NCBI GenBank assembly: GCA_027317185.1
Contig: DAHVFB010000002.1
Span: 22,672-86,671, forward strand
Direction: 5' to 3'
Origin: Deltaproteobacteria bacterium
GTDB taxonomy: Bacteria > Desulfobacterota > Binatia > Binatales > Binataceae
Length of the DNA: 64,000 bases
Shown: piece by piece, positions 1,601-19,103 of the stretch
How positions within the stretch are numbered: the stretch's first letter is position 1
How the letters are laid out: every line of letters begins with the position of its first letter
The notes under the pieces: model-generated
The model's database searches: none
What the model saw: the letters and a program-made list of their open reading frames with translations, nothing else
Told to the model about the DNA's origin: nothing
Position numbers and translations under genes: made by a program

Positions 1601-2239
1601 TTACCTGTCAGTATCGCGAGCGGCGCGGGGGATCGGCTTGAGATTAAGGTAAAACTTTTTTATCGGAGTGTCCCATAAGAGTGGGATGCCGCATCGGGCA
1701 ACTGCTTTTGCAGGATTACCCTGCACCATAGTCATCGCGGGGATTGATCGGGTCACGACGCTTCCGGCGGTAATCACCGCACCGCGGCCAATAGTAACGT
1801 TAGGCAATATTATCGATCCGGCGCCGAGGTAAACCTCGTCTTCTATCTTTACCGATACGTAGTTACTTAGATCTTCTTCATGGGGAAGCAGACTATGTAT
1901 ATGGGCGATTATCAAACACCTGATTCCGACCTGAACATCATTGCCGATCGAAATCCATTGCGGGTATGCAGTTTCCATCATCACGTCCGAAGCGATATGG
2001 ACGCGCTCACCGATCTTCACTCCTCGCTGGCGATGGGCCCAAATTCGGAAGCCGGTAGCGCCCGGCATCGAACGGGCAAGACTCTGCAGGATGCGGTTTT
2101 TCAGGGCTCGCCCGATGGACTCCTTGAACGCCGGCTTGTTGTGCGATTCCAAGCCATAGGCGGCGTCGGGCGTGATCTGATTGACGTCAAGAGGAAAGTT
2201 CTTATCCATGTTTCGTGACCGGGCAACTAAGCCGAACAT
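1601..2239 (-). CDS. Hexapeptide-repeat (LbH) acyltransferase
   Basis: Left-handed beta-helix repeats and C-terminal GSVVTRSIPAMTMVQGNPAKAV; ATG at 2239 overlaps upstream stop as TGATG. Confidence 0.85.
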   Translation of the reverse strand: MFGLVARSRNMDKNFPLDVNQITPDAAYGLESHNKPAFKESIGRALKNRILQSLARSMPGATGFRIWAHRQRGVKIGERVHIASDVMMETAYPQWISIGNDVQVGIRCLIIAHIHSLLPHEEDLSNYVSVKIEDEVYLGAGSIILPNVTIGRGAVITAGSVVTRSIPAMTMVQGNPAKAVARCGIPLLWDTPIKKFYLNLKPIPRAARDTDR

Positions 2240-2538
2240 CAAGGCTGATCCGGGTGCTTATTATCGGTCGGGGTTTGACTTCTATCCGCGATATATCGGC
2301 AAAACGAGCCCAGGACGGTAAGTTGTTCCGGGTCAAGCTCAGAAAAGTCAATCACGATCCCAAAAGTCTGTTCGACAGTTGAGATAAGCTCGACGATATC
2401 GACCGAATCGATAATACCTTCGGTCAACAAGTCCAGGTCATCGGGCAGATCGTCAAGTTCGCGTCCTGCGGCAAGTATCGAGTTTTCCAGTCGAGAGACG
2501 ACAAGCGCCCTGACCTGCTCAGCGGAAACCACAGTCAT
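2239..2538 (-). CDS. Acyl/peptidyl carrier protein
   Basis: 99 aa acidic helical protein with phosphopantetheine-type motif GIIDSVDIVEL; ATGA overlap with upstream gene. Confidence 0.88.
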   Translation of the reverse strand: MTVVSAEQVRALVVSRLENSILAAGRELDDLPDDLDLLTEGIIDSVDIVELISTVEQTFGIVIDFSELDPEQLTVLGSFCRYIADRSQTPTDNKHPDQP

Positions 2539-4139
2539 CCCAGTTCCTCCAGGTGCTTCTGCAATTGGCGACGATCGATTTTACCATTGGCGTTCAGCGG
2601 CCATTGTTCAATTTTGTGAATCCTGCGGGGTACCGCGTAACGGGGGAGCCGATGCTTAAGTTTATCGCGCAGCAGACCCATATCGGCTTTCGCGCCGGCT
2701 ACAAAGACTTCGATCGCCGCGGCGCCCGTACTGGTTAGAGGCCATCCCAGTGCAATGGCCACCTCTACGCCGGCTTCCGCCCGCAGTACGGCTTCGACCT
2801 CCTCCAACTCGACTCGATGTCCCTGAACCTTGATTTGATGATCGAGTCTGCCCAAATAAGTCATCGAACGATCGTCCTTGGACGACCGCACCCGGTCACC
2901 AGTGCGATAATAAAGCTCTTGTTTGGCCGCCGGCACCACAAAGCGCGCCGCGGTCTGTTCGGGATCCCGCCAATAGCCCAGCGATACCTGCGGGCCCGTC
3001 AACAGAAGTTCGCCCTCCTCACCCGGCGCAACCTCGACGCCGTTCGCATCGGCAACCATCGCCACCATACCCGGTATCGGATCACCGATGGGAACTATTT
3101 CGCGCTCGCATTGCGCTGGTGAGCTGGCCGGATCCCAGCGATAGATAGTGCAGGCAATAGTCAATTCGGTGGGCCCGTATAGATTTTCGACAATGCTGTT
3201 CGGTGCGGCAGCAGCCCACGTCGAGGCGATCTCAGCCGGCAAGGGTTCGCCGCAGAACAAACTCAGCCGCAAGTTCGGATAGTGACCGGCCCCCAGCGAC
3301 CCCAGTCTTTTCATCAGGACGCCTACCGATGGAACTGAAAACCACACGGTAATACGAGCTTCCTGTATAAAGGAGCCGGGATTCAACATCGTCCGCTGCG
3401 ACGGGCAGCACACGCACGCACCCGCCTCCCAGGCAACGAACATATCGAACACGGAGAGGTCGAAGGTCATATCGAAAGTCTGTGAAAAGCGATCGCCGCA
3501 GGTTACTCGATAACGATCCATTATCGCGTCGACAAAATGAGTGACGTTGCGCTGGGCAACCATCACCCCTTTTGGTATTCCCGTGCTGCCCGAGGTGAAC
3601 AGAACGTAGGCCAATGCGTCTCGAGTTTTCGGACGCTCCCGCCACGCAGCCGCCGGGTCCAAATCCTTCCGCGCGATAAACCGATGGGCCGGCCAGCGTA
3701 ACTTCAAATCGCCTGGTTCATCGCGATCGGCAAGTATAATGAGCAGTGGATAGTCAATCCCGTGAAGTAGTTCCGCAAGCTGCGGTTCGGACGCGCCATC
3801 AACGATGATCGAGCGGCACTCCGATCTGGCAAGCATCGTACGTGTTCGCTCCGGCGGGAATCCCCGATTCAGCGGCAAATAGCCATTGCCCGCCAGAAGG
3901 GATCCCAACACGCCAGCGAAGGCCGCGGGGGATCGGTATGCGAACACCCCGGTCATCGCGGGACCTCCCTCCGGAGTATGACTTTGGATAGTCGCGGCGA
4001 GCCGCGTGGCCGCCTCGCGTAGCTCGCGATACGTTACACATACGCCAGCCACGTCCACCGCGGGACGATCCGGGTGAGTTTCAGCCGAACGTAGAAACCC
4101 GTGGTAAAGCGGGCGATTCGGATCGTCTGCCGCAGTCAT
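2535..4139 (-). CDS. Stand-alone amino-acid adenylation enzyme (NRPS A-domain/DltA-like AMP-binding)
   Basis: Core motifs LFTSGSTGIPKGV, NLYGPTE, YRTGDRVR, GRLDHQIKVQGHRVE, NANGKIDRRQL. Confidence 0.93.
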   Translation of the reverse strand: MTAADDPNRPLYHGFLRSAETHPDRPAVDVAGVCVTYRELREAATRLAATIQSHTPEGGPAMTGVFAYRSPAAFAGVLGSLLAGNGYLPLNRGFPPERTRTMLARSECRSIIVDGASEPQLAELLHGIDYPLLIILADRDEPGDLKLRWPAHRFIARKDLDPAAAWRERPKTRDALAYVLFTSGSTGIPKGVMVAQRNVTHFVDAIMDRYRVTCGDRFSQTFDMTFDLSVFDMFVAWEAGACVCCPSQRTMLNPGSFIQEARITVWFSVPSVGVLMKRLGSLGAGHYPNLRLSLFCGEPLPAEIASTWAAAAPNSIVENLYGPTELTIACTIYRWDPASSPAQCEREIVPIGDPIPGMVAMVADANGVEVAPGEEGELLLTGPQVSLGYWRDPEQTAARFVVPAAKQELYYRTGDRVRSSKDDRSMTYLGRLDHQIKVQGHRVELEEVEAVLRAEAGVEVAIALGWPLTSTGAAAIEVFVAGAKADMGLLRDKLKHRLPRYAVPRRIHKIEQWPLNANGKIDRRQLQKHLEELG

Positions 4140-5398
4140 TCGCGCCCTCTAGTCGTTGCGATCGCTTTAGCCGCGCCGGGCAATACTGGAGGATTCGCCG
4201 CCAGCGCGGTAAGCGGAATTGTCCTTGATAAGGTGTTGGCATCCGCCGACGCCAGGCTGGCTGCCGCCATGCGAAATGCCGTCTGGCAGGAATGTAGATC
4301 CCGTTCTGCGAGGGGGATATCGAGAATATACCGGGTGAACCCTGCTCGCATATATTTACTAATCTCATTTGATACCGTTTCGTAGCCGCCGACCAAATAG
4401 GGACAAAAAGTGTTGTAATTCTTGAATGGCCATAGCCAATAGACACTGCGTTGACCGCTGGTGTCCTGTTCCATCGCCGACAATTGTTTATGCCATTGAG
4501 AATCTGAGAGTTTCATCGCCAGTGCATGACGGATCTGACCTTTGCGATCGGCGGGAAATCTCTGCTGCGCCAGTTGCCATGCTTGTTCGTCAGTTTCAGC
4601 CGCGATGATTCCGATGCGGATCCCCATGTTGCAGCGCGGCTCAAGCGGCGGATATTCCTCGCCCGGCTTCGGGTACTCGACTGCAACCGCATTGAGGGCC
4701 GCGGCGGTTTTCATGCCTGCGGGTGAAGAACCCGAAACGAAAACTCCAGGCATCAGATCGGAGGGGAGCAGCGGTTGTAAGCTGAGGTTCTTCACCCGGT
4801 AAAAGTCGCCGGCGAAAGTGACTGGCGTTTTCCCAGTCAATAGTTGCTGAATGATGGAGGTATATTCGGAAATTCTGGCATAGCGCTGATCGTGCGGAGT
4901 CTCGTCGCACAAGGCGGTTAGATCGTTGCGAAAGCCACCCGCTATCATATTCAGGTAGATTCGGCGGCCGTATAGATATGCCAATGAAGTCACCATCCTG
5001 GCGACCGAATAGGGATGCATATATGCAGGCTGCACTGCTACCAGTGGACATAGGCGCGCGGTGTTGGTGAGTACGATCTGGGTGGCTATCCATGGATCGA
5101 TCAGCCGGTTGTCGGAGTAAATTAGAATGCCGCTGCAGCCTGCCTCTTCGCTCCAGCGCGCCACTTCGGCGAGATGGGCCGCATAAACCTTGCCCGCATA
5201 GGCGGCAGACTGAGGCGCGGTGGAAAATAATGAAAACCGAAATGGCTCAGCTTCAGTGGTGTTTCCAGGCTGCAACACGGTCAACCCTCTAGAGGCTCCC
5301 GCCTCGCTGCGGGCCGGCATCCGTGATTTGTTCTCGATGATTCCCAAGCGGTAGCCATCGATTGCGCATCCGGCAAATAAATTCTCCGACCAGTTCAC
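4136..5398 (-). CDS. LLM-class flavin-dependent monooxygenase (luciferase-like, SsuD-type)
   Basis: TIM-barrel LLM pattern (RIYLNMIAGGFRNDL, RYARISEYTSIIQQLLTG, VFVSGSSPAGMKTA); ATGA overlap with downstream A-domain gene. Confidence 0.85.
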   Translation of the reverse strand: MNWSENLFAGCAIDGYRLGIIENKSRMPARSEAGASRGLTVLQPGNTTEAEPFRFSLFSTAPQSAAYAGKVYAAHLAEVARWSEEAGCSGILIYSDNRLIDPWIATQIVLTNTARLCPLVAVQPAYMHPYSVARMVTSLAYLYGRRIYLNMIAGGFRNDLTALCDETPHDQRYARISEYTSIIQQLLTGKTPVTFAGDFYRVKNLSLQPLLPSDLMPGVFVSGSSPAGMKTAAALNAVAVEYPKPGEEYPPLEPRCNMGIRIGIIAAETDEQAWQLAQQRFPADRKGQIRHALAMKLSDSQWHKQLSAMEQDTSGQRSVYWLWPFKNYNTFCPYLVGGYETVSNEISKYMRAGFTRYILDIPLAERDLHSCQTAFRMAAASLASADANTLSRTIPLTALAANPPVLPGAAKAIATTRGRE

Positions 5399-5612
5399 GA
5401 CAAATTCACTCGCAGTACGTCACGTTTCCATAACTTAGACTAGAACTGCATACTCGTGACGGCGCTAAGAATAGAACGTTTCCGCCTCCGCTAACTGGCT
5501 GTTGGGCTGCGAATAATGCGAATTTTTGGGCATAATTCACGAAGGAAAAGGACGTTTTTGGAAGTTTTAACACCAGATCGTGCATCCCCTTGCGATGGGC
5601 GAGCTTACCCAT

Positions 5613-6836
5613 CTACCGAGCAGGGCGCTCAGGCGCGGTATGCGGTTGCGGAAGATCGCCGATCGGGGCGTCTTTAATCAGCGCGGCAACTGCATCACAA
5701 AGGTTTTCCCGTTGAGCGTTCCATCCAAGGCCGGTCATTATCGAACCTGCTCGTTGGACGATCCGGGCACGATATTCCGGATGGTCGTGAAGTTCTGCGA
5801 TCGCGGCCGCCAACGAGGCGACATTGCCGGGCTCGAAGTAACGCACCGCATCCTCGGGAAAAAAATGTTCTATCGTACGCAGGCGTGCCGTAATCACTGG
5901 AATTCCCAGCGCGGCATATTCCAGCAGCTTCACCGGCAGCATCAGGTGGGTCGCGCTGCTCGGAGGATTCGGCACCAGGCCGGCCGAGACCGTGGAGAGC
6001 GCCGCGGGCAGTTGCTCGAGCGGAACCTGACGCTCGAACCGCACGCGATCATCGAGTTTGAGCCGCGCGCAAAGCGCTTGGGCTGCTTCCCAGAAATCAC
6101 CGGTGCCCAGCAATCGCAGCCGCAATTGCGGAATGCGATCGCGCAGCTCATGGATGGCGTAGAGCGCGGTATCGATACCCAGCCGGCGGCTGACGGTGCC
6201 ATGAAATACCAGGGTGAAATGATCGTCTTTGGGCGGCGAGCCGTACAGATCACCGATTGGCTTGAAAATTTCTGGGTTGGGAGAATTCAACACCACATCG
6301 ATTTTCTCGCGCGGTATTCCGGACTGCACCAGACGCTGCGCGTGCGGCTCATGCACCGCGAGTATCCGATCGGCAAGCCACGCGCTGGCGCGCTCTTCGA
6401 GCATCAGCAAGCGTGCGCCAGCCGCTCCCAATCGTCCATCGAACTTGTCGCGGTAAAGCTCGGGCATGGTGTCGCGGATATCGAGCAGAATCTTACTGCC
6501 GAGTAGCTTCGGAATCAGGGCGCTTAGCACCGCGGCGTCCGGCATGGTGCACACGATCACGAGGTCATACTTCTGTCGCAGGGACAATCTGGCGGCGGTC
6601 ACCGAGGCTAAGGCAAAAAATCTCAGGTAGCTGAACAGGTAGCCGACTCGGCTGGCGCCATGGTATTTCGGCATCGGCAGCCAGATCACATTGATGCCGT
6701 TACGCTGACCGCGGACCTTGGTGGCGACGCAGATTACGTCAACCGAGTGACCTTGTTGAGCGAGGGCCTCCGCATGACGCTTTGATCGCGCGTCGGAAAC
6801 CCAGGTGTTGTAAGTGATCATTAAAATCCGCGCCAC
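5613..6836 (-). CDS. Glycosyltransferase family 4 protein
   Basis: GT-B pattern: N-terminal QGHSVDVICV, C-terminal PVKLLEYAALGIPVITARL. Confidence 0.88.
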   Translation of the reverse strand: MARILMITYNTWVSDARSKRHAEALAQQGHSVDVICVATKVRGQRNGINVIWLPMPKYHGASRVGYLFSYLRFFALASVTAARLSLRQKYDLVIVCTMPDAAVLSALIPKLLGSKILLDIRDTMPELYRDKFDGRLGAAGARLLMLEERASAWLADRILAVHEPHAQRLVQSGIPREKIDVVLNSPNPEIFKPIGDLYGSPPKDDHFTLVFHGTVSRRLGIDTALYAIHELRDRIPQLRLRLLGTGDFWEAAQALCARLKLDDRVRFERQVPLEQLPAALSTVSAGLVPNPPSSATHLMLPVKLLEYAALGIPVITARLRTIEHFFPEDAVRYFEPGNVASLAAAIAELHDHPEYRARIVQRAGSIMTGLGWNAQRENLCDAVAALIKDAPIGDLPQPHTAPERPAR

Positions 6837-6922
6837 CGGAATATCTCCTCGCAGTTCTGCGCATCGCTCTCCGTCTTACCTGTCGCACATGTTGGTTCAG
6901 TGATCGGTAGCTATCGAAGCTC

Positions 6923-8692
6923 TCACACCGAGTTGCTCAGGCGGGTCACCAGCATGTTCTCAAGAAAAAGGCAGTCGATTCCCGTGTTCAGAAAGGTTTC
7001 CAGCGCTTCACGTGGAGTGTTAACGATCGGCTGTCCCTTGACGTTGAAGCTGGTATTGAGGACCATCTCGCGGCCGGTCGCCCAGCCCACCGCGCGAAGC
7101 AGATTGTGAAAGTCGGGATTGTCGGTAGCTGAAACCGTCTGCATGCGTGCGGAGCCATCCACATGCGTGATAGCCGGCAGCGTCGCGCGATGTTCGGGCC
7201 GCACATCCACGGTCGCAATCATGTAGGGATAGAGCGCCCCCGGCGCCACTTCGAACCAGCGATCGGCCTCCTCGATCGTGACCGCCGGTGCGAACGGCCG
7301 GAACGCCTCACGCTTTTTGACCATTGCGTTGATCCGATCACGCATCTCGGGATGGGCCGGATCGGCGAGAATACTGCGATTGCCGAGTGCGCGTGGTCCG
7401 AACTCCATTCGTCCGCGGTACCACGCCAGCACCTTCCCTTGCTTGATGAAATTGGCGGCTTCGCTGCTGGTCTGATCGAGGTCGTTGAAGCGTCTCACTT
7501 TGATTCGATCCGCGAACTGTGCGACTGCGGTATCGATCGCCGGCTGGGAATATCGGGGGCCGAGAAACGGGACCGGCATGCGCTGATTCATCACCTCACC
7601 CTTAAGCGCAGCGCGATGAAGCGCCGCACCGAGCGAGGTGCCATCGTCGCCGGCCGCGGGCTGCACATAGATTTCGTCGAACAATCCGGACCGCATGAGT
7701 CTGCCATTGGCGGTACAGTTAAGCGCGACGCCACCCGCCATCGCGAGTCTGCGCAATCCGGTTTCGCGGGCGAAATGGCTGACGATGTGCATGATCACCC
7801 GATCGAGACAAGCCTGCAGCGCCGCCGCGACATCGCAGTGATCGCGGCTGATTTCGTCAGCCGGATCGCGCCGGGCAATTAGATTGTCGGCCAGCCATTG
7901 ACGCGTTTGCAGATAATTTTCGCGTTCATCGCGAGTGCGATTCAGGCGCAGAATCGGGATGTGCACGGAGCCGTCAGGGCGGCACTCAATGGCATTGCGG
8001 AAGACCGGTTCGTAGTGCGCCGGATCGCCGTAGGGCGCCAACCCCATGATTTTGTATTCATCGGAATTGAAATCGAAACCGAGATGAAGCGTAACCAGCG
8101 AATATAGGATCCCGATGGAATCGTTGGCCGATAGCTCACGCAGCTTCTGCAACCGTCCTTCGTGCGCTCGATAAATTGAGACACTCTGCGACTCCCCCAT
8201 CCCATCGATCACGATTACCAGGCACTCGTTCCATCCGGAGGTGAAGTAGGCGCTCGCGGCGTGACATAAATGGTGATCGACCTGATGAACCGATGCGGGT
8301 GGAAAGTCTGGACAATGACGGGCTATCTGTTCCAGCAGGGCGTGCTTCGAGTAAACCGTCTCATAGCGACGAGCGTAGAGCGGATCGAGCGAAAAAACGG
8401 CCTTGTGACGGGAATAATCGAAGGAATGGGCAACCTCGCTGACATCGCCAAGTGAAATGCCGGCTTCTCGCAGACAATAGTTGATCGCTTCGATGGGGAA
8501 ATCGCCGCAATGCTTCTTGCCATTGAAGCGCTCTTCGGCTGCGGCCGCGACCACCGTGCCGTCGACGATCAACGCTGCGGCGGCATCAAACCCCTGCAAA
8601 ATTCTGTACTCACGCTCATCCAATCCGGACCAATTCGCCTGCTTAAAACTGAGCGAATTGGCCAGTCCGCTGATTCCGAGGATTGCACTCAT
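6923..8692 (-). CDS. Carbamoyltransferase (NodU/CmcH/TobZ family)
   Basis: Start MSAILGISG; VDHHLCHAASAYFTSGW, MAGGVALNCTANGRL, GRMEFGPRALGNRSILADP, C-terminal LNTSFNVKGQPIV. Confidence 0.95.
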   Translation of the reverse strand: MSAILGISGLANSLSFKQANWSGLDEREYRILQGFDAAAALIVDGTVVAAAAEERFNGKKHCGDFPIEAINYCLREAGISLGDVSEVAHSFDYSRHKAVFSLDPLYARRYETVYSKHALLEQIARHCPDFPPASVHQVDHHLCHAASAYFTSGWNECLVIVIDGMGESQSVSIYRAHEGRLQKLRELSANDSIGILYSLVTLHLGFDFNSDEYKIMGLAPYGDPAHYEPVFRNAIECRPDGSVHIPILRLNRTRDERENYLQTRQWLADNLIARRDPADEISRDHCDVAAALQACLDRVIMHIVSHFARETGLRRLAMAGGVALNCTANGRLMRSGLFDEIYVQPAAGDDGTSLGAALHRAALKGEVMNQRMPVPFLGPRYSQPAIDTAVAQFADRIKVRRFNDLDQTSSEAANFIKQGKVLAWYRGRMEFGPRALGNRSILADPAHPEMRDRINAMVKKREAFRPFAPAVTIEEADRWFEVAPGALYPYMIATVDVRPEHRATLPAITHVDGSARMQTVSATDNPDFHNLLRAVGWATGREMVLNTSFNVKGQPIVNTPREALETFLNTGIDCLFLENMLVTRLSNSV

Positions 8693-8966
8693 TATTACAC
8701 CTATTCGAGGCGATTGAGCCGCGCCATTGCCGACAGTCGCCTTTTCCAAACGGCGCTCGCTTGCCTTGGACCGATACTGCCATTTTCAGCAATTTTAAAA
8801 TGGATAAAACCTACGTCTGGGAGTGCCGCTTTGGTTCACCGTTGCCATTCAAGGCGAAACGGTTTCGCTCTTTGGTACGAATCGGCAGGCGAGGCCGAAA
8901 ATGCCCCGTAGCGGTTGGTTCTTTTCCCAAACAGGACCAGGCGGACGCGACTTGGGCCCGGCGCGG

Positions 8967-11251: not shown

Positions 11252-12550
11252 TTGAGTAGCCGCCTTGCAGCTACTCAAGCTCGTTCGCCAAAGGCCGCGC
11301 CCGGTTCGGCGCAAAGCCGGCTGCTGGCTGCCGGCCTAATCGGAAACGTTCTGGAATGGTATGACTTTTCGCTGTACGGATATTTCGCCGCCTCGATTGG
11401 ACAGCACTTTTTTCCCTCGCGCAGTCCCGCGGTATCATTGATGGTGGCGTTCGCCGTCTTCAGCGCGGGCTTCCTGACCCGTCCGCTGGGCGCGATCCTC
11501 TTCGGCTATATCGGCGATCACTATGGCCGCGAGCGCGCCTTGATGCTGTCCATACTCGCGATGGCGGTGCCGACCTTCGTCACCGGATTGTTGCCCGGCT
11601 ACGCCAAAATCGGCGCGGCGGCCTCGATCCTGATGGTTATTCTTCGGCTCACCCAGGGGCTTTCCGCCGGTGGCGAATACACCACGTCAATCGTGTTTTT
11701 GGCCGAACGTTCGACCCAGATGGGACGCGGCTTCATGGCCTCGTGCGGACTGTTTGGCAGTATCGCGGGTGGGATGCTCGGCTCGGCGGCCGGCGCGCTA
11801 CTGAGTCATTTGATGACACCGGAAAATGTGGATGCCTGGGGATGGCGAATACCCTTCGTACTCGGCATTGTGCTCGCGTTCGTGGGCATACTGATCCGGC
11901 GCGATTTACCGCATACCGCGCATCCTCGCAGCGAGCCGGCAGCCGCGATGGCGCGCGCGATCATTACGCAATGGCGGGCGTTGCTGCATGTAACTGGGTT
12001 CGAGTTGCTCGAAGCGGTGGGGTTCTACACGACCTTCATATATCTGGCCACCTACATGACACAGGTGGTTCATCTTTCTCAGCCACACGCCTTCGCGGTT
12101 AATACCTTGAGCATGGGTTTCGTACTGTTCATCATTCCGCTGGCTGGATGGATGTCGGACCGGATCGGACGCAAGCCGGTTTTGCTTACCGCCGCCGTCT
12201 GCGCGCTCGCGTTCGCCTGGCCATTATTCCGCCTGTTCCAGCGCGGTTCGTTTGGCTCCGCGCTGTTCGCCGAGCTGGGCCTGGCGGCAATTATCGGATG
12301 TTACGAGGGTGCAACTCCCGCAGCCGCCGCGGAAGCTTTTCCGGCCGGTATTCGAGCCACCGGCGTTGCCGTGGCATTCAATCTCTGTATGACGCTGTTT
12401 GGTGGAACCACTCCGATGGTGGCAACCTACCTGATTGAACGTACCCGCAGTCCCATGGCGCCGGCGGTATATCTAATGATTGCGGCTGCACTTTCAACAA
12501 TCGCGATACTTACCTTATCGGAAACCGCACACGACCCCCTGAAAGATTGA
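11252..12550 (+). CDS. MFS transporter, metabolite:H+ symporter (MHS/ProP-like) type
   Basis: 12-TM pattern; GNVLEWYDFSLYGYFA, GYIGDHYGRERALMLS, GWMSDRIGRKPVLL. Confidence 0.93.
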   Translation: MSSRLAATQARSPKAAPGSAQSRLLAAGLIGNVLEWYDFSLYGYFAASIGQHFFPSRSPAVSLMVAFAVFSAGFLTRPLGAILFGYIGDHYGRERALMLSILAMAVPTFVTGLLPGYAKIGAAASILMVILRLTQGLSAGGEYTTSIVFLAERSTQMGRGFMASCGLFGSIAGGMLGSAAGALLSHLMTPENVDAWGWRIPFVLGIVLAFVGILIRRDLPHTAHPRSEPAAAMARAIITQWRALLHVTGFELLEAVGFYTTFIYLATYMTQVVHLSQPHAFAVNTLSMGFVLFIIPLAGWMSDRIGRKPVLLTAAVCALAFAWPLFRLFQRGSFGSALFAELGLAAIIGCYEGATPAAAAEAFPAGIRATGVAVAFNLCMTLFGGTTPMVATYLIERTRSPMAPAVYLMIAAALSTIAILTLSETAHDPLKD

Positions 12551-14454
12551 ACAAGCTATTGGCTCGGCATTTGCTTCCTTCTCTGCCCGGTCATTGCTTG
12601 GAAACCACCAATCAGAACTCCAACCCTGAACTCGTCGAAGACGGACATGTCGGCGTCAGCCGCGCGGCGCGCCCAATTATCGGCGTGATCATCGGAACCG
12701 CGGTCCTTTATTTCGGGCGTGAGGTTCTTCTTCCACTCGCGGTCGCCACCATTTTGGCGGTGATCTTCAGCCCTATCGCAGATCGACTAGAGCCGTGGCT
12801 GGGCCGTCTGATCAGCACTGCGCTGGTGGTTTTGACCGCAATCGTGGTGGCCGCCGGCATCGGTTATTTCCTGACCGTCGAGCTGGCTTCGGTCGCCCTG
12901 CAGATGACCGACTATACCGATAACATCGCGCGCAAAGTATCGGCGGTCGAGAGAAGCCAGCCGGCATGGCTGCAACGGGTCGAAAACGCCATCAAGGAAG
13001 TCGAAAACCAGGTGCAACGTTCGCAGCCCCGCGTACGGCAGCGAAAACCGACGATGGTACAGACGGTGCCTGCTTCACCCCAGGTTCAGGAGGTGGTGAA
13101 GAGCGTCCTCCCGGTGTTGTCCGGCGTGATCGAAACCCTGCTGATCATCGTGCTGTTGTTTTTTATGCTGCACGAACGCCGAAACCTGCGTGATCGATTT
13201 GTCAGATTGTGCGCACGGGGGCGGATCACAGTAGCGGCGGAGGCGATCGATACCGCCGGACATGCGGTCAGCCATTATCTATTTTTAATTTCAGTAATCA
13301 ATTTTGCTTTCGGCGTTTCGATTGGAATTGTCCTCGCGATCCTCGGCCTGCCGAACCCGTGGCTATGGGGCGTCATCGCTTTTTTGCTGCGGTACGTGCC
13401 CTATGTCGGGGCGTTCATGGCGGGATTATTGCCGACTTTGGTGGCTTTTGCGGTATTTCCCGGATGGGGTAAGTCGCTCGAGGTGTTGGGCGCGTTCATT
13501 GTGTTGGATCAAGTGTCGGCACAGTTCCTGGAGCCAGTTCTGGTCGGGCGCGGAATCGGCGTTTCGCCGGTAGCGCTACTGGTCTCGGCCATGTATTGGG
13601 CGTGGCTGTGGGGGCCGGCAGGCTTGCTCCTGGCGACGCCACTGACGACTTGTTTCAAGGTCGCGGGAGACTACCTTCCAGCCCTCGGGTTCTTTTCGAT
13701 CCTGCTAGGGGCAGATGGCAAACTTGAAGATTACAACGATTACTACCGAATGTTGCTTGAACTCGATGAATCAGGCGCACGCGCACTCGCAATCCGCTAC
13801 TGCAACGAGCACGGCCTGGAAGCGACTTTCAACGATTTGCTGATTCCCGCCGTGATGCTGGCCGGCGACGAGCGCGCACAGAACCATATTCCCGAGGAGA
13901 ACGAGCGCTTCGTGATGGACGTCACGCGCCAGTTAATTGCTGATCTTGGAAGTCGTTTCAGCAAGGCCCGGATCATCCCTAATCTGCGCATCTTCGGCAT
14001 CTGTGCGCCCGGCGAGGTACACAATATCGGCCTTCTTATCCTGCTCGAGCTGCTGCGGCTCGATGGCGCCGCTGCCCGTTACTCAGGCGATAATCAATCG
14101 CGCGACGAGATTCGCGAATACACCAGACGCTATTCACCCGATGTGCTGTGCATTTCATGTGTCAGCGATCAGAGCCTGCCGGTAACGATCGAGCTTACCC
14201 GGGAGCTCAAGCTGGATCTGCCCAATCTGGCAATCTTCGCCGGCGGAACCGCCGCGATGGCCGGATCGAATGAACTCCTGAAGGCTGGATGCATGCAAGT
14301 ATGCGCGACCAAGGAGAAAGCCAGACGCGATATTCTGCGCTTCGCCCAACGCCGCTTTCGCCTGCGCGCGGTCCCCCCACCATCGCCTGCGACGGAGCGT
14401 CAACCGGCTGCCGCCGGGGCGGAAGCCGCGCCTCGTCAAAATCGCAACATCTGA
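12547..14454 (+). CDS. AI-2E family transporter with C-terminal cobalamin-binding-like domain
   Basis: AI-2E-type TM region (ILGLPNPWLWGVIAFLLRYVPYVGAF); C-terminal ~130 aa resembles a B12-binding Rossmann fold; TTG start overlaps upstream stop. Confidence 0.88.
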   Translation: MNKLLARHLLPSLPGHCLETTNQNSNPELVEDGHVGVSRAARPIIGVIIGTAVLYFGREVLLPLAVATILAVIFSPIADRLEPWLGRLISTALVVLTAIVVAAGIGYFLTVELASVALQMTDYTDNIARKVSAVERSQPAWLQRVENAIKEVENQVQRSQPRVRQRKPTMVQTVPASPQVQEVVKSVLPVLSGVIETLLIIVLLFFMLHERRNLRDRFVRLCARGRITVAAEAIDTAGHAVSHYLFLISVINFAFGVSIGIVLAILGLPNPWLWGVIAFLLRYVPYVGAFMAGLLPTLVAFAVFPGWGKSLEVLGAFIVLDQVSAQFLEPVLVGRGIGVSPVALLVSAMYWAWLWGPAGLLLATPLTTCFKVAGDYLPALGFFSILLGADGKLEDYNDYYRMLLELDESGARALAIRYCNEHGLEATFNDLLIPAVMLAGDERAQNHIPEENERFVMDVTRQLIADLGSRFSKARIIPNLRIFGICAPGEVHNIGLLILLELLRLDGAAARYSGDNQSRDEIREYTRRYSPDVLCISCVSDQSLPVTIELTRELKLDLPNLAIFAGGTAAMAGSNELLKAGCMQVCATKEKARRDILRFAQRRFRLRAVPPPSPATERQPAAAGAEAAPRQNRNI

Positions 14455-18002: not shown

Positions 18003-18056
18003 TCATGCTATGTTTTGGCAGCCTTCAAGGGTAAATTCGGCCCGGCGGTGAGGACC

Positions 18057-19103
18057 ATGGAGCAGATCAGTTTCGGAGTTTTCGACCATATCGAGCGGAC
18101 CAGCGGCAGCGCCAATTTGCATACGCTTTATCATGAGCGGCTGCGGATGATGGAAGAGTACGACAAGGCGGGCATGTTCGCGGTTCATATCGCGCAGCAT
18201 CATGCCACGCCGCTGGGGATGGCGCCGTCGCCCAACGTATTTTTGGCCGCAGCCGCGGAGCACACCAAGAAGCTGCATTTTGGACCGCTGGTTTATCTGC
18301 TGCCGTTTTATCAGCCGTTACGCCTGATCGAGGAAATCTGTATGCTCGATCATCTTAGCGGTGGCCGTTTGGAAGTCGGCGTCGGGCGCGGGGTTTCGCC
18401 CTTTGAGCTGGGACTGCATCGGATTCCTTTCTACGATTCGCGCAATATTTATAATGAGGGGCTCGAAGTGCTCCGGCGCGGCCTCAGCAATGACCACCTC
18501 ACCTTCAATGGCAAGTACTATCAGTTCGAGAACGTGCCGATGGAACTGCGGCCGCTACAGCAGCCGCATCCGGATTTCTGGTACGGCACGATTAACGTCG
18601 AGAGCACGATATACGCGGCGAAGCATGGAATGCATGTGGTGACGCTGGGACCGGCCAGCGATGCCGCGAAAGTCGTGGCCGCATATCGCGAGGCCTGGGA
18701 TCCGAAGGGTCCGGATAATCTGAATCCGCACGTGAAGTCGCCGAAAATCGGAGTGCAGCGCCATATCTTCGTGGCCGAAAGCGACGCGGAAGCCTATCGC
18801 ATCGGGAAAGAGGCGTTCAAAGTTTTCTTTCATAATATTCAGAAGATCTGGGCTGACTTTCACACTTCGACCAGCGTGTTCCCGAATGACTTCGACCTCA
18901 TGCTGAAGGCGGGCGCGTTCATTGTCGGATCGCCTTCGAAGGTGCGCGATGAACTGGCGCGCGTCGCCGAGGTAACCCGGACCAATTACCTGGTGCAGGT
19001 GTTTTCGTGGGGCAACCTGACGCTCGATCAGTCGCTCGGTTCGCTGAATTTGTTCGCAAGCAAGGTGATGCCCGATCTGCAGAAGATTGCGCTCGCGGCC
19101 TGA
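18057..19103 (+). CDS. LLM-class flavin-dependent oxidoreductase
   Basis: ISFGVFDHIERT, HHATPLGMAPSPNVFLAAAAEHTKKLHFGPLVYLLPFYQPLRLIEEICMLDHLSGGRLEVGVGRG. Confidence 0.93.
   Translation: MEQISFGVFDHIERTSGSANLHTLYHERLRMMEEYDKAGMFAVHIAQHHATPLGMAPSPNVFLAAAAEHTKKLHFGPLVYLLPFYQPLRLIEEICMLDHLSGGRLEVGVGRGVSPFELGLHRIPFYDSRNIYNEGLEVLRRGLSNDHLTFNGKYYQFENVPMELRPLQQPHPDFWYGTINVESTIYAAKHGMHVVTLGPASDAAKVVAAYREAWDPKGPDNLNPHVKSPKIGVQRHIFVAESDAEAYRIGKEAFKVFFHNIQKIWADFHTSTSVFPNDFDLMLKAGAFIVGSPSKVRDELARVAEVTRTNYLVQVFSWGNLTLDQSLGSLNLFASKVMPDLQKIALAA

Follow-up and report, generated by a model that had tools for sequence, protein, structure and literature searches.

The DltA-DltC pair, which serves the D-alanylation of teichoic acids, is the closest described case of a stand-alone adenylation enzyme for a small amino acid acting with a small carrier protein. 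In DltA, the amino group of D-alanine contacts Asp197 and its methyl group is surrounded by a Leu, Met200 and Cys268/269; it is the Cys that selects the D over the L form (PMC4176424, PMC8972799). Among luciferase-like monooxygenases (LLM), sulfonate binding by MsuD depends on W195, on R225 and on the RGGA loop with its R296 (PMC8234197). Two further systems are comparable in part to the locus described here: the XrtA/PEP-CTERM polysaccharide clusters, in which an adenylate-forming enzyme (the acyl-CoA ligase TIGR03098) is found with an Asn-synthase-like amidotransferase, FemAB/GNAT proteins and a sugar transferase, and the NodU/CmcH/TobZ superfamily of O-carbamoyltransferases.

We analysed a stretch of 64,000 nucleotides (the window) from a bacterium of the family Binataceae. 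An earlier note, made from the sequence alone, had described a compact and possibly undescribed cluster of six co-oriented genes near its start. The open reading frame list and Pfam/NCBIfam scans confirmed the six genes, their coordinates and their families:

1601..2242, minus strand: left-handed beta-helix (LbH, hexapeptide) acyltransferase; Hexapep 4.8e-13; His114 in the motif IAHxH
2239..2538, minus strand: stand-alone carrier protein (ACP), 99 aa; PP-binding 3.4e-7; predicted phosphopantetheine (Ppant) site Ser45 in GIIDSVD
2404..2406, minus strand: codon of the predicted Ppant-attachment serine (Ser45) of the ACP
2535..4139, minus strand: stand-alone amino-acid adenylation enzyme (A); AMP-binding 9.7e-69; TIGR01733 above cut-off; pocket DLFSLCLIAK
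4136..5398, minus strand: LLM flavin monooxygenase with a predicted SsuD/MsuD-like fold; Bac_luciferase 1.3e-31
5613..6836, minus strand: GT4 glycosyltransferase, by Pfam
6923..8749, minus strand: NodU/CmcH-type O-carbamoyltransferase (CarbT) of a distinct subfamily; Carbam_trans N and C domains (1e-54 and 2e-68)

Since neighbouring genes overlap by 4 bp at the LLM/A, A/ACP and ACP/LbH junctions (at the last, the LbH start lies over the ACP stop), these four genes look like one translationally coupled unit. CarbT and GT4 lie upstream of LLM, with at least 214 bp between GT4 and LLM and 86 bp between CarbT and GT4. The LLM start is probably annotated too far upstream, because homology begins near residue 50; the real start would lie about 120-150 bases inside the reading frame. 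As had been claimed, the locus has no NRPS condensation domain and no PKS domain, according to a Pfam scan of all six proteins, and it is thus not a modular NRPS.

Around the cluster, the sampled neighbours (peptidase M23, MFS, AI-2E/B12 and UbiD genes) were unrelated and gave no polysaccharide context. The adjoining gene (15-1508) encodes a 497-aa protein with a proline/threonine-rich N-terminal start and no Pfam family. Further along, a single 635-aa reading frame (12547-14454) holds an AI-2E family transporter domain fused to a B12-binding domain, an unusual fusion, and a second luciferase-like monooxygenase (18015-19103) has genes for a UbiD-type decarboxylase and for a sigma-54 activator in its vicinity.

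The A enzyme scores 333 bits against TIGR01733 (cut-off 317) and has the pocket residues D227 and K520 of amino-acid-type NRPS adenylation enzymes. Its pocket code DLFSLCLIAK corresponds to residues 227, 228, 231, 271, 294, 296, 320, 328, 329 and 520. At the places that contact D-alanine in DltA we observed Asp227, Leu228, Phe231 and Cys296, of which Asp, Leu and Cys are near-invariant in relatives; the same Asp, Leu and Cys surround alanine in DltA. The A-domain of LgrA module 2, whose substrate we take to be glycine, has Ser-Leu-Cys at the matching places and shares much of its pocket with the window type. The pocket residues, from which a prediction of specificity had been called for, thus suit a small amino acid, with D-alanine and glycine as the likeliest candidates; we did not assign a single substrate because both kinds of pocket share features with that of the window enzyme. 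The enzyme scores far below the cut-offs of these related families: 250 bits against the DltA model TIGR01734 (cut-off 560), 261 against PRK04813 (cut-off 476) and 208 against TIGR03098 (cut-off 592). The score of the ACP for DltC also falls far below the NCBIfam cut-off. DltB (MBOAT) and DltD were found neither among the six window genes nor among those recurrent families of 83 related loci that were annotated, and the cassette differs further from the Dlt system in having an LLM and acyltransferases of cytosolic LbH or GNAT type.

The AlphaFold2 model of the LLM (pLDDT 89) has the TIM-barrel fold of the superfamily, with MsuD as best PDB match (TM about 0.70, 24% identity); for MsuD and SsuD together the TM score is about 0.7 and the identity 22-24%. 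These best solved relatives raise the question of an ordinary alkanesulfonate monooxygenase involved in sulfur scavenging and standing beside NRPS-like genes by chance. Among 60 members of the LLM family, the equivalent of MsuD R225 is kept in 58, but it is the sole residue of the sulfonate site to be retained: the place of W195 is occupied by Tyr in 57, that of SsuD H228 by Gly in all 60, and the RGGA loop is replaced by TFCPY, its Cys-Pro-Tyr being present in 60/60. In the window protein these residues are Cys332-Pro333-Tyr334 and lie where MsuD has its sulfonate-binding loop. The LLM scores far below the equivalog cut-offs, no NCBIfam model comes near its cut-off, and an A-domain constantly adjoins the gene, a setting of aminoacyl-carrier genes that differs from that of SsuD and MsuD. 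With RGGA, W195 and H228 lost and Cys-Pro-Tyr fixed, we therefore rejected a standard alkanesulfonate enzyme, a reading to which we give hardly any credence; the LLM has its own conserved active-site loop.

The earlier note had suggested a search for co-occurrence of A, ACP, LLM and LbH. An alignment of 9 LLM sequences was used to scan 84,980 species genomes, which gave 186 related places, spread over about 15 phyla. Because the scan used LLM peptides only, the genes beside each LLM are independent evidence. The best 80 of the 186 places were kept as loci, with phyla assigned from record titles; they represent Acidobacteria, Gemmatimonadetes, Planctomycetes, Nitrospira, Rokubacteria, Chloroflexi, Actinobacteria, Verrucomicrobia, Latescibacterota, Deinococcus relatives, Bacteroidota, Myxococcota and Proteobacteria, and a genome of the Binataceae that is close to that of the host is also among them. 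Together with the window, one further genome of the family and five plasmids, 87 loci were examined. In 80 of them LLM has an A gene within 6 kb, and in 74 this gene is directly adjacent on the same strand, at less than 400 bp; an ACP is present within the same 6 kb in 69, and the LLM-linked ACPs keep a DS[L/V/F] motif around the Ppant serine. The linkage of LLM, A and ACP thus recurs across phyla, and this core is a deeply conserved cassette common to many unrelated phyla. The other genes of the proposed unit fared unevenly: LbH accompanies the core in a subset (9/87), CarbT within 6 kb in part of the loci (22/87), and GT4 is not conserved, so that the six-gene unit as a whole was rejected. 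The objection foreseen in the earlier note, that homologues would fail to co-occur across genomes, does not hold for LLM, A and ACP, for LbH in a subset and for CarbT in part, but it does hold for GT4. In the open-access literature searched, no account of the LLM cassette came up; the LLM-A-ACP gene set is apparently undescribed.

In the A tree, the 71 LLM-linked A-domains analysed group together as one clade (support 1.0), apart from the 13 other A-domains, and the type found in the window makes up a sub-clade with 19 members (support 1.0). Nearly all LLM-linked A-domains have the pocket DL[F/H]SLCLIAK, with minor variants, though the two main A groups share only about 30-35% identity. Agreement between the LLM and A trees is weak (r 0.26, against 0.27 for the top of 999 shuffles); strict coevolution was therefore rejected, and the partners have been exchanged over time. 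In the order and family of the host, LLM is present in 4 of 41 genomes, the same four that carry the cassette-type A and the CarbT subfamily, and the one other genome of the host genus lacks the cassette; such patchy occurrence would be expected of a mobile accessory pathway. The hosts are mostly uncultured soil and water bacteria. The carriers also include Methylocaldum, Thioalkalivibrio, Bradyrhizobium, Tritonibacter and Streptomyces, named strains with sequenced genomes, which makes the cassette testable.

These neighbourhoods bear on a simpler possibility, in which A, ACP and LbH would put unoxidised D-alanine or glycine on a glycan, much as in the Dlt system, and the LLM would act on another substrate of the pathway. 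The A enzyme does resemble DltA in its pocket and DltA is among its best family matches; moreover, gene order alone, here the position of LLM beside A, is no proof of a shared substrate. However, no other neighbour of this A clade is as constant as the LLM, and the A-domains found elsewhere in the same loci fall outside the LLM-linked clade, mostly with unrelated pocket codes. Weighing the two sides, we consider unoxidised transfer quite unlikely. The cassette is best read as working like a Dlt-type activation pair to which an LLM oxygenase and an acyltransferase would be added.

An acyltransferase or formyltransferase was recognised near LLM in 41 of the 65 loci with room downstream. The types, which alternate among loci, are LbH, a single GNAT (family F13), a tandem GNAT (family F8) and/or a formyltransferase; F8 is the commonest, being found in 24 of the 87 loci, followed by the formyltransferase (19) and F13 (17). 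In its structural model, F8 would be a tandem GNAT resembling N-myristoyltransferase. FemAB-like genes also occur near the cassette in some loci. The LbH family counts 10 members with the motifs IAHxH and AGSVV; the window protein has the hexapeptide repeats (Pfam Hexapep) and, in His114, a catalytic-type His. Binatota, Acidobacteria and Actinobacteria all have examples of the quartet with LbH, and the order LLM-A-ACP-LbH-CarbT was observed in two sister genomes, with CarbT directly after LbH. The fourth partner is thus usually an acyltransferase, LbH here and GNAT-type elsewhere, often with a formyltransferase. That these enzymes recur near LLM suggests that the group on the carrier passes directly to an acceptor. 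This argues against the sequence of steps proposed earlier, namely release followed by glycosylation, the more so as GT4 is not conserved.

Both Carbam_trans domains (N and C) place CarbT in the NodU/CmcH/TobZ superfamily of O-carbamoyltransferases, and carbamoyl transfer is predicted. It differs from the named members in scoring far below the NodU cut-off. Its homologues near the LLM cassette are mostly 52-68% identical and the next matches in the host family 41% or less, which sets it apart as a separate subfamily. CarbT is a recurrent partner of the cassette. GT4 has a 44% fragment beside LbH in a single locus (L017) and is otherwise absent from close cassette relatives. Could GT4 and CarbT then belong to an envelope unit of their own, with no relation to the LLM-A-ACP-LbH operon? 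The gap of at least 214 bp, the lack of conservation of GT4 and the many loci without CarbT within 6 kb of LLM would fit such a unit, but the CarbT subfamily is near LLM in 22 loci, directly follows LbH in the two sister genomes and shares its 4/41 genomes with LLM. We find a separate unit improbable; of the two genes that had been placed in the pathway, CarbT keeps its place and GT4 does not.

The CarbT type serves secondary metabolism too, because a second copy (66% identical, on another contig of the same genome) precedes genes for an A-T protein and for a PKS, and in Burkholderia glumae PKS genes are preceded by a 46% relative. The operon of the second copy (locus L108, contig C12 of the host genome, 525-10661, cut by the contig end) has a one-module PKS with KS, AT, KR, DH, ACP and TE domains and would be a further natural-product operon. 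On plasmids of Rhizobium, Tritonibacter and Gemmobacter, the clusters around LLM relatives (46-51%) contain different combinations of genes for A, ACP, P450, acyl-CoA dehydrogenase, halogenase and PPTase, and two A-domains of these clusters have the DltA-like code DVFSLCTVAK.

At least one recurrent glycan gene was found near 28 of 83 LLM genes; for loci at least 17 kb long the count is 20 of 43. Several relatives belong to polysaccharide clusters whose other genes encode an XrtA-type amidotransferase, a sugar-phosphate transferase, a tyrosine kinase, a Wzy-like ligase, a DegT aminotransferase and a weakly matched possible deacetylase. These clusters recall the XrtA/PEP-CTERM systems; the window's A differs from their adenylate-forming enzyme in being of amino-acid type (TIGR01733), an LLM is added and several homologues lie outside such clusters. 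A recurrent soluble family (F47, about 455-507 aa) lies near the cassette in L015, L031, L036, L075 and L089; it has no Pfam or NCBIfam family except a marginal polysaccharide-deacetylase match.

Since about half of the longer relatives lie in or beside exopolysaccharide or XrtA-type clusters, the product may be a glycan decoration instead of the free small molecule first proposed. That earlier model, a diffusible natural product made by loading and oxidising an amino acid, then freeing, glycosylating and carbamoylating it, would account for the CarbT copies ahead of the A-T/PKS operon and the Burkholderia glumae PKS, for the LLM relatives in NRPS, halogenase or P450 clusters and for a window copy outside any polysaccharide cluster. 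It is at odds with a conserved unit that has no thioesterase, condensation domain or exporter, with the frequent acyltransferase partners, with the polysaccharide genes in about half of the longer relatives and with the loss of GT4 from the set; we regard it as unlikely.

We favour, at a probability of roughly 45%, a carrier cassette in which D-alanine or glycine is loaded, oxidised and transferred to an acceptor, either a glycan or a small molecule, the product being carbamoylated. The A enzyme would activate the small amino acid and load it on the Ppant arm of the ACP; the LLM, dependent on FMNH2, would oxidise the ACP-bound aminoacyl group by N- or C-oxygenation; LbH, or a GNAT-type enzyme elsewhere, would pass the modified acyl on to the amine or hydroxyl of an acceptor, which is probably a sugar; and CarbT would O-carbamoylate the same product, with the local GT4 as an optional extra. 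A wider proposal, doubtful in our opinion and put forward tentatively, is that of a widespread glycan decoration, in which the LLM would represent a new flavoenzyme class with a Cys-Pro-Tyr active-site loop, oxidising an amino acid on its carrier protein, and exchangeable acyltransferases would pass the resulting acyl group, an unusual one such as N-hydroxy, oxime, formylated or deaminated, to a sugar. Several observations count against the favoured reading: about half of the longer relatives have no recognised recurrent glycan gene, the window copy lies outside a polysaccharide cluster, the LLM and A trees agree weakly, and a few LLM homologues stand within halogenase/P450/NRPS clusters.

The near-fixed amino-acid pocket across about 15 phyla points to one conserved chemical step. 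If the proposed reading is true, it would add an enzyme class, LLM enzymes acting on carrier-bound amino acids, and the cassette could explain a common, so far unexplained modification of exopolysaccharides.
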